64,000 bases of DNA from Sulfurimonas sp. (GTDB taxonomy: Bacteria > Campylobacterota > Campylobacteria > Campylobacterales > Sulfurimonadaceae): contig PPDH01000028.1 of the NCBI GenBank assembly GCA_002899765.1, positions 140,978 to 204,977 on the forward strand, written 5' to 3'. Of the stretch, positions 29,967-59,750 are shown piece after piece (position 1 is the stretch's first letter; every line of letters starts with the position of its first letter). Under the pieces are notes generated by a model, which ran no database searches, was not told where the DNA came from, and saw nothing but the letters and a program-made list of their open reading frames with translations. The position numbers were made by a program, and so were the translations under genes.

Positions 29967-29984
29967 GTGCATAACCCATTCTAT
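29967..29984 (-). promoter_or_regulatory. Variant sigma54-like promoter upstream of tpx-nifQ
   Basis: Minus strand ATAGAATGGGTTATGCACAT: AG-N10-GC. Confidence 0.55.
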
Positions 29985-30064
29985 TGTAAAGCAGAGCTTA
30001 CTGATTATATTTTATACAGTTTATTGCTTATTTAAATAGTATAATTTGAAAAATAGAAGTTTAC

Positions 30065-31690
30065 ATGTCAAAGAAAAATCATATTCCTGATGATGAACAG
30101 TGTCAATCATGTGCATTAAAGTTTGCTTATGATGAGATTAGCATACTCTACGAAATAGCAGTAATGTTGACAAACACGACAGATACAAAAGAGTGCATAG
30201 AAAAAAGCATGCTTCTTCTTAAGAGAAAATCATATCTTGAGAGATGTACGCTTTTTCTTCTTAATGACGAAGGCGAGTATCTGGAACTTTTTGCTTCTAT
30301 AAACATAACGCCTGCCCAACAGAAAATGGCAAGATATAAAATAGGCGAAGGAGCAACGGGTCTTGCCGCAAAAAGTGCAGAACCTATCGTAATAGAAAAT
30401 ATTCACAATAATATCAACTACTTAAATAAAATCGGCACGGTAAATACAAAATCTATCTCCTACGTAGCTACTCCAATCATTCAAGACAGCGGAGTTATAG
30501 GCGTTTTGTCCGCTAACATCGATGAGTCAAGCGTGATAAACTTTGACAATATCGTTCACATGCTGACAATTGTAGGCTCGCTTTTTGGCGGCAATATATC
30601 TATGCAAAAGAGATTTGCAAAAGAAAAAGAGAGTTTGGTTGAGCTTAAAACATACTATAAAGACCAAGCGCTTAGCGAATATAGGTTTGAAAATATAATC
30701 GGCAAAAGTTCTAAAATGAAACTTATATTTAACATGTTAGAGACGGTCTCGCCCTCCGATGCCACTATTTTGGTAAGAGGCGAAACAGGCACGGGAAAAG
30801 AGCTTATAGCTACTGCGGTACACAACTTAAGTAAGCGTAAAAACGGCCCGCTAATAAAACTAAACTGTGCGGCTATAAGCGAGACACTGCTTGAGAGCGA
30901 ACTTTTTGGACATGAAAAAGGCGCTTTTACCGATGCCAAAGAGAGCAGAAAAGGAAGATTTGAGTTAGCAGACGGAGGCACGCTTTTTTTAGACGAAATA
31001 GGCGATATAACGCCATCTCTTCAGGTTAAACTTCTTAGAATTTTGCAAGAACAGGAGTTTGAACGCGTAGGCGGAACTAAAACAATTAAAACAAACGTTA
31101 GGTTAGTGGCGGCAACAAACAGAAATCTAGAAAAAATGGTCAAAAGCGGCGAGTTTAGAGAGGATTTGTTTTACCGTTTAAACGTCATTCCTATAAATCT
31201 GCCGCCGCTTCGTGAGAGGTATGAAGACGTTAAGCTCTTAATCGAGCACTATCTGCATAGCTTTACAAAAGAGCATAAAAAAGAGATGTTTTTCTCTAAA
31301 CAGGCTTTAGAAATTCTGCTTGATTATCCATGGCCTGGAAATATCCGCGAACTTCAAAATACAATGGAGAGAATAGTTTTAATATGCCCAAACGGAGTAA
31401 TAAATCCCGAGATGTTAAACCATGTAATGCCATTTAACTATCAAAAATTGCATATGAACATGGATAGTGAGAAAACAGAAGTACAAAAAGAGAGTTTGCC
31501 TGCTCAAAACAGAGAAGAAAATGCAGTGCCGCAGACCTTTACTAAAAACAGAATTTTAGAGATTGAAAAAGAGTCGATTATTAAAGCATTAGTTGATAAC
31601 CGCGGCATAAAAACAAAAGCTGCAGCACAGCTTGGAATGAGCACAAGGCAGATTACGTATAAAATCAAAAAATATAATATAGAATTTTAA
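30065..31690 (+). CDS. nifA: Nif-specific sigma54 activator NifA
   Basis: GAF domain; VRGETGTGKELIATAVH, GAFTDAKESRKGRFELADGGTLFLDEIG; C-terminal Fis-type HTH. Confidence 0.92.
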   Translation: MSKKNHIPDDEQCQSCALKFAYDEISILYEIAVMLTNTTDTKECIEKSMLLLKRKSYLERCTLFLLNDEGEYLELFASINITPAQQKMARYKIGEGATGLAAKSAEPIVIENIHNNINYLNKIGTVNTKSISYVATPIIQDSGVIGVLSANIDESSVINFDNIVHMLTIVGSLFGGNISMQKRFAKEKESLVELKTYYKDQALSEYRFENIIGKSSKMKLIFNMLETVSPSDATILVRGETGTGKELIATAVHNLSKRKNGPLIKLNCAAISETLLESELFGHEKGAFTDAKESRKGRFELADGGTLFLDEIGDITPSLQVKLLRILQEQEFERVGGTKTIKTNVRLVAATNRNLEKMVKSGEFREDLFYRLNVIPINLPPLRERYEDVKLLIEHYLHSFTKEHKKEMFFSKQALEILLDYPWPGNIRELQNTMERIVLICPNGVINPEMLNHVMPFNYQKLHMNMDSEKTEVQKESLPAQNREENAVPQTFTKNRILEIEKESIIKALVDNRGIKTKAAAQLGMSTRQITYKIKKYNIEF

Positions 31691-31728
31691 GACTTTATAC
31701 TTTGAAAACCCAAATGAAATAGTCTATT

Positions 31729-31950
31729 TTAACTATCTCCTCTTGATACTATTTTAGCATTGACTTCATTTGGAAGTTTTTTAATATTTGGTTCTATGTG
31801 CCATACATCACCGTTAGTCAAATTGATATCTCCTCCCCATTTTTCATCGCTTTCAAACTCCAGCGACTCAATTATCTCTTCCATATCTTTTTTAGCTACA
31901 TAAAATAGCACCTTGCCCTCATCATTTTCTCTCAACATAACTTTTGCCAT
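31729..31950 (-). CDS. nifT: NifT/FixU family protein
   Basis: KVMLRENDEGKVLFYVAKKDMEEIIESLEFESDEKWGGDINLTNGDVW. Confidence 0.85.
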   Translation of the reverse strand: MAKVMLRENDEGKVLFYVAKKDMEEIIESLEFESDEKWGGDINLTNGDVWHIEPNIKKLPNEVNAKIVSRGDS

Positions 31951-31975
31951 TATAGACTCCCTGTTTTGTATAATA

Positions 31976-32080
31976 GAATACTCTGATTAAACATAGATTG
32001 CTTCGTCGTAAACTCCTCGCAATGACAGTCATTGCGAGCTTCTTTAGAAGCGCGGCAATCTAAAAACTTAATTATTCAGA
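31976..32080. repeat. 105-bp palindromic repeat, copy 1 (inverted relative to 47080-47184)
   Basis: GAATACTCTGATTAAACATAGATTGCTTCG...CTCGCAATGACAGTCATTGCGAG...GGCAATCTAAAAACTTAATTATTCAGA. Confidence 0.9.
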
Positions 32081-58236: not shown

Positions 58237-58584
58237 TTACGCCGCAACTATTTTAAAGTGAGCCATTGAGTCAAATTTTTTACAAAGAGCCATAGTTTCA
58301 TCATCAGAATCCAATCTTTTTGAAAGCTCGGAAATTTGATAGCGATTCGTATAAATCATATAATCCGTCTCAGCGGTTTTTATATAATGCACAAGTGCTT
58401 TGAACATAAATGTATCTTTGTTCGTATAAGAAAGTTCTTCGGTTTGACCGTGGTATTCTGTAACCATTTTAATTTCATTGATACCGCTTGTATCAATATT
58501 TGCTTCATCCAATTTTGCAACCACTGCATCATCGGGAACATTATTTCCCATCTCTGCGGGAAAGTGAAAACCTAATATAAACAT
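58237..58584 (-). CDS. Uncharacterised protein encoded between nifH and nifD
   Basis: 115-aa ORF MFILGFHFPAEMGNNVPDDAVVAKLDEANIDTSG..., same strand and spacing as the nif operon. Confidence 0.75.
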   Translation of the reverse strand: MFILGFHFPAEMGNNVPDDAVVAKLDEANIDTSGINEIKMVTEYHGQTEELSYTNKDTFMFKALVHYIKTAETDYMIYTNRYQISELSKRLDSDDETMALCKKFDSMAHFKIVAA

Positions 58585-58629
58585 GTAATTCTCCTACTTT
58601 TTTGTTTTGTTATTTTTTTTATAATGGAA

Positions 58630-58707
58630 GCGATGGCTTGCCTTCGCTCAAGTGCTGCCATGAAAGTTGCAACATCAAAGTACTCTCTGCCAAAGCCAAG
58701 GCATCGG
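58630..58707. repeat. BIME: REP-y (58630-58647) and REP-z variant (58690-58707)
   Basis: GCGATGGCTTGCCTTCGC -42 nt- CCAAAGCCAAGGCATCGG. Confidence 0.85.
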
Positions 58708-58750
58708 TTCCGAAGCGATGGCAGTTTAACCGCCATACTCTGCTAAAGAA

Positions 58751-59656
58751 TTAAGCCTCTGCCGCTTTACCGATATTATCGATATCCGCCTCTTCTTCAA
58801 GACCGTATTTCATAATAAGCGCTTCAAGTTCATCCATCTCTAAAGGAGTAGGAATTACTTTCATATCGTTGTTGATAATCTTACGTGCAAGTTCTTTGTA
58901 CTCTAACGCCTGATCGGCTTTTGGGCTGTATTCAACAACCGTCATACGACGAATCTCAGCTCTTTGAACGATGTTGTTACGCGGTACGAAGTGAATCATT
59001 TGCGTACCCAAATCACGTGCCAAAGCCCATGCAAGGTCGTATTCAAAGTCAGTCATACGAGCGTTACAGATAAGACCTGCAAGACGAACGCCGCCTGTGT
59101 TGGCGTATTTTAAAATACCTTTAGAGATGTTATTTGCAGCATACATTGCCATCATCTCACCGGACATTACGATATAAATCTCTTGCGCTTTACCCTCACG
59201 AATCGGCATAGCAAATCCGCCGCAAACAACGTCGCCAAGAACGTCATAAGATACGAAGTCAAGACCTTCAGCCTCATAAGCACCCTCTTCTTCAAGAAAG
59301 TTAATCGCTGTAATAACACCGCGACCTGCACAACCAACCCCTGGCTCAGGTCCGCCTGACTCAGTACAGTTAATCCAACCATGCGGAGCTTCGGGAGCAA
59401 ATATACCTGCACCCGGTTTAAGTGCGTCTTCAAGCTCTAAATCCTCAACCGTACCCATTTCCGCAGCAAGCTGTAAAATAGTGTTTTGAGCTTTTTCATG
59501 TAAAATCAGACGAGTAGAATCCGCTTTAGGATCACACCCGACTATCATAATATTTTTATCAAAGTAATAAGCCATTGAAGCCAACGTGTTTTGGGATGTA
59601 GTTGATTTACCGATCCCGCCTTTTCCATAAAATGCAATCTGACGAAGTGCAGCCAT
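58751..59656 (-). CDS. nifH: Nitrogenase iron protein
   Basis: [28 protein letters not shown]...[37 protein letters not shown]. Confidence 0.98.
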
Positions 59657-59732
59657 ATTTTCTCCTTAATTTAAGATATAAAAAATCTACCCGATTTGTA
59701 ATTTTCATATCGATTGTCTTACAAACTAGTAT

Positions 59733-59750
59733 GTGCATTCTCTGTTCTAT
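59733..59750 (-). promoter_or_regulatory. Variant sigma54-like promoter upstream of nifH
   Basis: Minus strand ATAGAACAGAGAATGCAC: AG-N10-GC. Confidence 0.55.

Follow-up and report, generated by a model that had tools for sequence, protein, structure and literature searches.

The nif cluster of this Sulfurimonas genome raises the question of which sigma factor could read promoters that resemble sigma-54 sites and yet lack the GG at -24. The canonical sigma-54 -24/-12 promoter has the form GG-N10-GC, with the -24 GG treated as near invariant and built into promoter searches. In the window, by which we mean the whole analysed stretch of 64,000 nucleotides, five variant sites upstream of nif-associated units had been put forward as a nif-specific sub-class of RpoN promoter. 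All five were found where the original prediction had placed them and on the same strands, with a gap of exactly 10 nt between the dinucleotides in each: AG/GC sites upstream of tpx-nifQ (AGAATGGGTTATGCAC, 29967-29982, minus strand), of nifU (AGAATAGGAATTGCAT, 35853-35868, minus strand), of a PII-like gene at 35940-36338 (AGAACAAAATATGCAT, 35888-35903, plus strand) and of nifH (AGAACAGAGAATGCAC, 59733-59748, minus strand), together with a CG/GC site upstream of nifE (CGAACAAAAATTGCAC, 52156-52171, minus strand). We also identified a sixth site, absent from this earlier list: an AG/GC promoter (AGAACATTATATGCA, 52184-52198, plus strand) upstream of a hemerythrin-like gene (52234-52614) that diverges from nifE, with the counterpart AGCACATTATATGCA in G186 / L273. 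At -25/-24 the nif sites of the window read AG or CG in place of GG, whilst GC at -13/-12 and the 10-nt gap are found in the five sites and in that of the hemerythrin-like gene. The likeness to the canonical promoter thus extends to the spacing, G-24, GC at -13/-12 and the distance to the genes; the difference lies at -25, which is A or C here and almost never G. Judged by their sequence, these sites fall outside the canonical -24/-12 promoters and form a variant class that probably works in the same way, and sigma-54 promoter searches with a built-in GG would miss such nif regulons.

Further matches in and around the window are of differing quality. Upstream of the second rpoN gene discussed below (rpoN2) no clear AG/GC promoter was found in this genome, with only a degenerate and possible AG/GA site, alone not significant, seen at 38689-38703 on the minus strand (AGAATAATATATGAA). 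An AG/GC match at 49609-49624 on the minus strand (AGAACGATTATTGCAC) is doubtful: it falls inside nifN, towards the 3' end and some 180 nt ahead of nifX, and may reflect protein coding; the identical string is found in G116. Additional AG sites are located immediately beyond the window, one of them about 120 nt upstream of nifB (site C4:207416; nifB C4:205955-207292). Also outside the window, two AG/GC sites stand exactly back to back and divergent at C4:213731-213762, an arrangement that recurs in G116 (1579285/1579301) and G163 (1571749/1571765).

Short motifs of this composition call for a comparison with chance. The pattern GAAYN5WTGCAY is matched 7 times in the window against 1.78 expected, an approximately fourfold excess, and none of 100 dinucleotide shuffles reached 7 matches. 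Genome-wide, AGAAYN5WTGCAY gives 23 matches, 10 of which fall within C4:170944-213762, the 43 kb around nif that make up 1.8% of the genome (Poisson probability of approximately 1e-13, with the rate taken from outside the region): the motif is clustered at nif instead of occurring at random frequency in intergenic regions genome-wide. A looser pattern (HGAAYN6TGCA) does match 157 times in the genome, and the tighter AG pattern is found 5-23 times in nif-negative relatives, as would be expected of chance matches to an AT-rich pattern. This reading, to which we give practically no credence, is contradicted by the clustering at nif, by the retention of orthologous positions in 19 genomes and by an approximately 20-fold enrichment of AG/GC upstream of genes versus elsewhere in genomes of the RpoN clade A described below, an enrichment whose significance is overstated, as sites of related genomes are non-independent. 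The clustering, the gene-by-gene conservation and a scan with both dinucleotides left free refute it.

A candidate for the sigma factor in question is encoded within the nif cluster itself. A search with the sigma-54 DNA-binding domain revealed two RpoN genes in the genome, one in the nif cluster, which the original prediction had not noted, and the other on contig 8, where it immediately follows a gene for an lptB-like ABC ATPase. The two RpoN proteins are 40% identical, and flagellins are present in this genome. The nif-linked gene (37329-38597, minus strand) encodes a protein of 422 aa, RpoN2, which scores above the cut-off of TIGR02395 and is the second PF04552 match in the genome. It exhibits the RpoN box VRRSIAKYRQE and the HTH motif NESTISR and is a full-length sigma-54 in which the equivalents of R455, R456, S379 and R383 are kept and T457 is replaced by S. 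Because this gene sits in the nif cluster of the window, the variant promoters adjoin a candidate dedicated sigma factor, and the suggestion in the original prediction that they are weak without NifA becomes the less likely idea. An activator is at hand as well: the sigma-54 activator (bEBP) encoded at 30065-31690 on the plus strand is NifA-like, with TIGR01817 (nifA) as best match at 507.8 bits, slightly below the cut-off of 528.85.

On this basis we consider it very probable, as far as sequences can tell, that the nif promoters are served by RpoN2 as a nif-dedicated sigma-54 paralogue with its own promoter code. RpoN2 and NifA would use the AG/CG sites as -24/-12 promoters: in this lineage A has taken the place of the first G in the -24 GG (C in the case of nifE and nifN), with G-24, the gap of 10 nt, the GC at -13/-12 and the A at -11 all kept. 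The flagellar sigma-54, encoded elsewhere in the genome, would use TGG...TGCT, and the two promoter sets differ at both -25 and -11. We infer that the AG/CG promoters of this genome have RpoN2 as their sigma factor, that they are read poorly by the flagellar RpoN and that the benefit of two codes lies in regulons kept apart; the gene and promoter sequences suggest two separate sigma-54 channels in the cell, one for nif and one for flagella. In most relatives a full AG/GC site also precedes rpoN2 (AG in 14/14), and since rpoN2 itself has an AG promoter there, its positive autoregulation in most relatives is suggested.

In order to place both RpoN proteins, we surveyed 397 genomes of the class, including draft assemblies, of which 72 exhibited nifH above the curated cut-off; every RpoN was located and trees were built. 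In the RpoN tree of the nifH-bearing genomes, clade B is flagellar/housekeeping, whilst clades A and C are nif-linked. Clade A, which includes RpoN2, was seen in 22 genomes, all from the family of the window, which has Sulfurimonas and Sulfuricurvum as its nearest named relatives; this clade is found with nif, normally beside clade B. In the nif-positive genomes of family f7 and in nearly all of those of f4, clade C is the sole RpoN, whereas f10 and four genomes of the window's genus have it as an additional copy. The sampled nif-negative members of f7 are without RpoN; those of the window's family have one RpoN, except for one genome with none and two drafts with two each; a partial nifH is present in one of these drafts. 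In the genus g6, comprising four single-contig genomes without flagellin, clade A is the only RpoN. In three nifH-bearing genomes of family f6 (G007, G117 and G395), no sigma-54 site could be recognised in front of nifH, and their nif genes may be regulated otherwise.

The nif regions of these genomes were then scanned with xx[AC]AYN5WTyyA, in which both dinucleotides were free to avoid fitting the earlier motif and the inner bases were fixed; matches were retained if they were non-coding and lay no more than 220 nt upstream of a gene. With clade A, mostly accompanied by clade B, the sites read AG/GC in 91 cases and CG/GC in 22-23 (22 after removal of duplicates), with GG/GC in only 5 of approximately 119 and TG/GC in none. 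With clade C as sole RpoN, GG/GC was found 95 times (f7 74, f4 21) with 4 exceptions, and AG or CG not once. At the orthologous promoters of nifH, nifU, PII, tpx, nifE, nifN and rpoN2 in 19 genomes of the family, AG or CG stands where GG might have been expected, which gives good support to a nif-specific sub-class. The base at -25 is moreover specific to the gene: in clade A genomes AG is found at nifH (18/18), nifU (12/12), PII (11/11) and tpx (9/9), as at rpoN2, and CG at nifE (10/11) and nifN (8/8). These figures bear on the idea of a clade A indifferent to the base at -25, with the change as functionless drift. Both A and C do occur at this position, and g6 mixes A and G; however, T was never seen at -25, G is rare, and the base is gene-specific and conserved between genera, and we regard this explanation as unlikely.

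The strongest argument for the reading of AG by clade A comes from the sequences of g6, the sites of which are GG/GC in 12 cases and AG/GC in 11. GG is found at nifH, nifU and PII, whilst AG is kept at rpoN2, nifN and nifW. As the only RpoN of these genomes belongs to clade A, clade A must read AG, provided that the g6 promoters work, and the GG sites indicate that it would read GG also. The same genomes weigh against a single sigma-54 pool, in which both RpoN proteins would read the sites as ordinary promoters of reduced strength and the loss of the G would only make for strict dependence on NifA. A NifA-like activator is indeed present, the two RpoN genes normally occur together in clade A genomes, and the flagellar RpoN may be able to bind AG; yet AG promoters persist in g6 in the absence of any flagellar RpoN, the nif cluster retains its own rpoN, -11 also separates the nif from the flagellar set, and NifA-type sites (TGT-N10-ACA) are not enriched in the window. 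We hold such a shared pool to be improbable, slightly more so than drift, and retain the dedicated RpoN2 as the preferred explanation. In three genomes (G303, G295 and G239) AG promoters are found although no flagellar RpoN was seen: for G295 and G239, both drafts with flagellins, a missed flagellar RpoN gene is likely, whilst G303 is also without flagellin. AG arose once, in a single lineage, which precludes testing its link with clade A against repeated origins.

The contrast with the flagellar promoters was also checked in the window. The flagellar sites had been described as two in number with GGAA(C/T) and TGCT; the sequence holds (TGGAAY...TGCT), but there are three of them, at 19191, 21414 and 22900. 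The first, TGGAACATAAAATGC(T), is a GG/GC promoter at 19191-19205 on the minus strand, before an FlgE-like gene, and TGGAATAATTTATGC(T), at 22900-22914 on the minus strand, is of the same flagellar GG/GC type. All flagellar promoters read, which come from this genome only, exhibit TGGAAY...TGCT, in contrast to AG/CG...TGCA at the nif promoters. With -11 left free in the scan, A was found at 119/126 clade A sites and at 95/96 sole-clade-C sites; nif and flagellar promoters thus differ at -11 (A versus T, the flagellar T from this genome only), and this position may contribute to telling the two sets apart. In 51 genomes TGGAAY...TGCT and AGAAY...TGCAY were also counted genome-wide: flagellar-type matches number 1-4 in g6 versus 9-23 in flagellate relatives, but 30 and 36 in two RpoN-less genomes, so that the counts are unusable as a control.

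Clade C departs from the consensus at the other dinucleotide. Where it occurs together with clade B, the sites read GG/GT in 32 cases, GG/GA in 9 and GG/GC in 14 (window's genus: 12, 6 and 3; f10: 20, 3 and 11). Nif promoters that keep GG and have GT or GA for GC at -13/-12, and are thereby also off the sigma-54 consensus, were noted in G044, G165, G143, G326, G282, G379 and the f10 loci. The simplest answer to why there are two codes, and an extension of the dedicated-RpoN2 explanation, would be insulation: nif promoters would have left GG/GC as a flagellar sigma-54 competed for them, at -25 with clade A and at -12 with clade C, would have stayed at GG/GC where no such competitor is present, and would relax back after loss of the flagellar copy. 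To this we give an even chance. It is favoured by the near-uniform GG/GC under sole clade C against the mixture under clades C and B, by GG at nifH, nifU and PII in g6, where clade B and flagellin are both lacking, and by 1-3 independent pairs in the same direction with 0 in the opposite one. Such a number of independent transitions is nevertheless too small, and the effect is not significant after phylogenetic correction. Single genomes also run counter to it: G336 and G167 have two RpoN and yet a GG/GC nifH promoter, nifH in f10 stays GG/GC, G303 has AG in spite of lacking clade B, and G044, with neither clade B nor a second RpoN, has single GT and GA sites. The wider proposition, that on at least two occasions in the class a nif-dedicated sigma-54 beside a flagellar one left GG-N10-GC in a different way (clade A with AG/CG at -25, clade C with GT/GA at -12), giving natural orthogonal systems with a partial return to GG/GC after loss of the flagellar copy, is put forward tentatively, at slightly less than even odds.

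Closed-complex structures of sigma-54 indicate which residues could be involved: R455 and R456 of the RpoN box read GG, and H377, S379 and R383 of the HTH read GC (PMC9770992), whilst E378 has been implicated in -12 recognition (PMC4496707). In clade A both RpoN-box arginines are kept and the next residue, T457, is S or V; the position of E378 is P in the flagellar RpoN of the window's family and E in clades A and C. From the alignment, changes at these two positions are candidate causes of the altered code. T457S as a single sufficient cause of AG was rejected, with G134 and G336 exhibiting S together with GG promoters.

A division of sigma-54 between nif and flagella is already known from Rhodobacter (Cereibacter) sphaeroides, in which RpoN1 serves nif and RpoN2 flagella with discrimination at -11 (Poggio 2002, 2006, as summarised in PMC11999139). 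The two systems share paralogues split between nif and flagella and promoters that differ at -11, and would share cognate activators (NifA and a flagellar bEBP); unlike there, G at -25 (clade A) or C at -12 (clade C) also differs here, in another bacterial class and across whole genera. A nif-linked second rpoN is likewise known: for Wolinella succinogenes, of the same class as the window genome, an rpoN in the nif operon was noted in 2011 as a remark without promoter analysis (PMC3372290), an extra copy within the nif cluster as in our case. This remark was all we found on sigma-54 paralogues in the class, and no report of a lineage-wide change of -25 G or -12 C linked to a nif RpoN was encountered, both within partial coverage of the literature. 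G167 is presumably a Wolinella genome. Its second RpoN, in contrast to that of the window genome, is very divergent and lies outside clades A and C, and its nifH promoter reads CGG...GC; the nif-linked RpoN in question (L043) has a branch of approximately 3 changes per column and the HTH motif ISQPTFSR. If our interpretation is true, these lineages possess natural sigma-54 factors that read -25 or -12 differently, paired with their own promoters, and would offer material to find the residues reading each base and to build orthogonal sigma-54 circuits, among them nif clusters that can be transferred together with a sigma factor of their own.

Several other features of the window were observed. 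The nifE gene (50760-52157, minus strand) is interrupted at 51579-51581 by one in-frame TGA, on either side of which the frame is open; a nonsense mutation of recent date or an error in the draft assembly would account for it. A gene for a flavoprotein like fumarate reductase / L-aspartate oxidase, downstream of nifU (32068-33789, minus strand), appears broken into two frames. The minus strand at 60710-62260 encodes a leucine-rich-repeat protein whose C-terminal domain is acetyltransferase-like, with all family matches far under the cut-offs. Finally, the segment 38734-46549, within the nif cluster between rpoN2 and a ferredoxin gene, holds ABC-2 permease, RbbA-like ATPase, HlyD-like, outer-membrane efflux and TetR-like genes.
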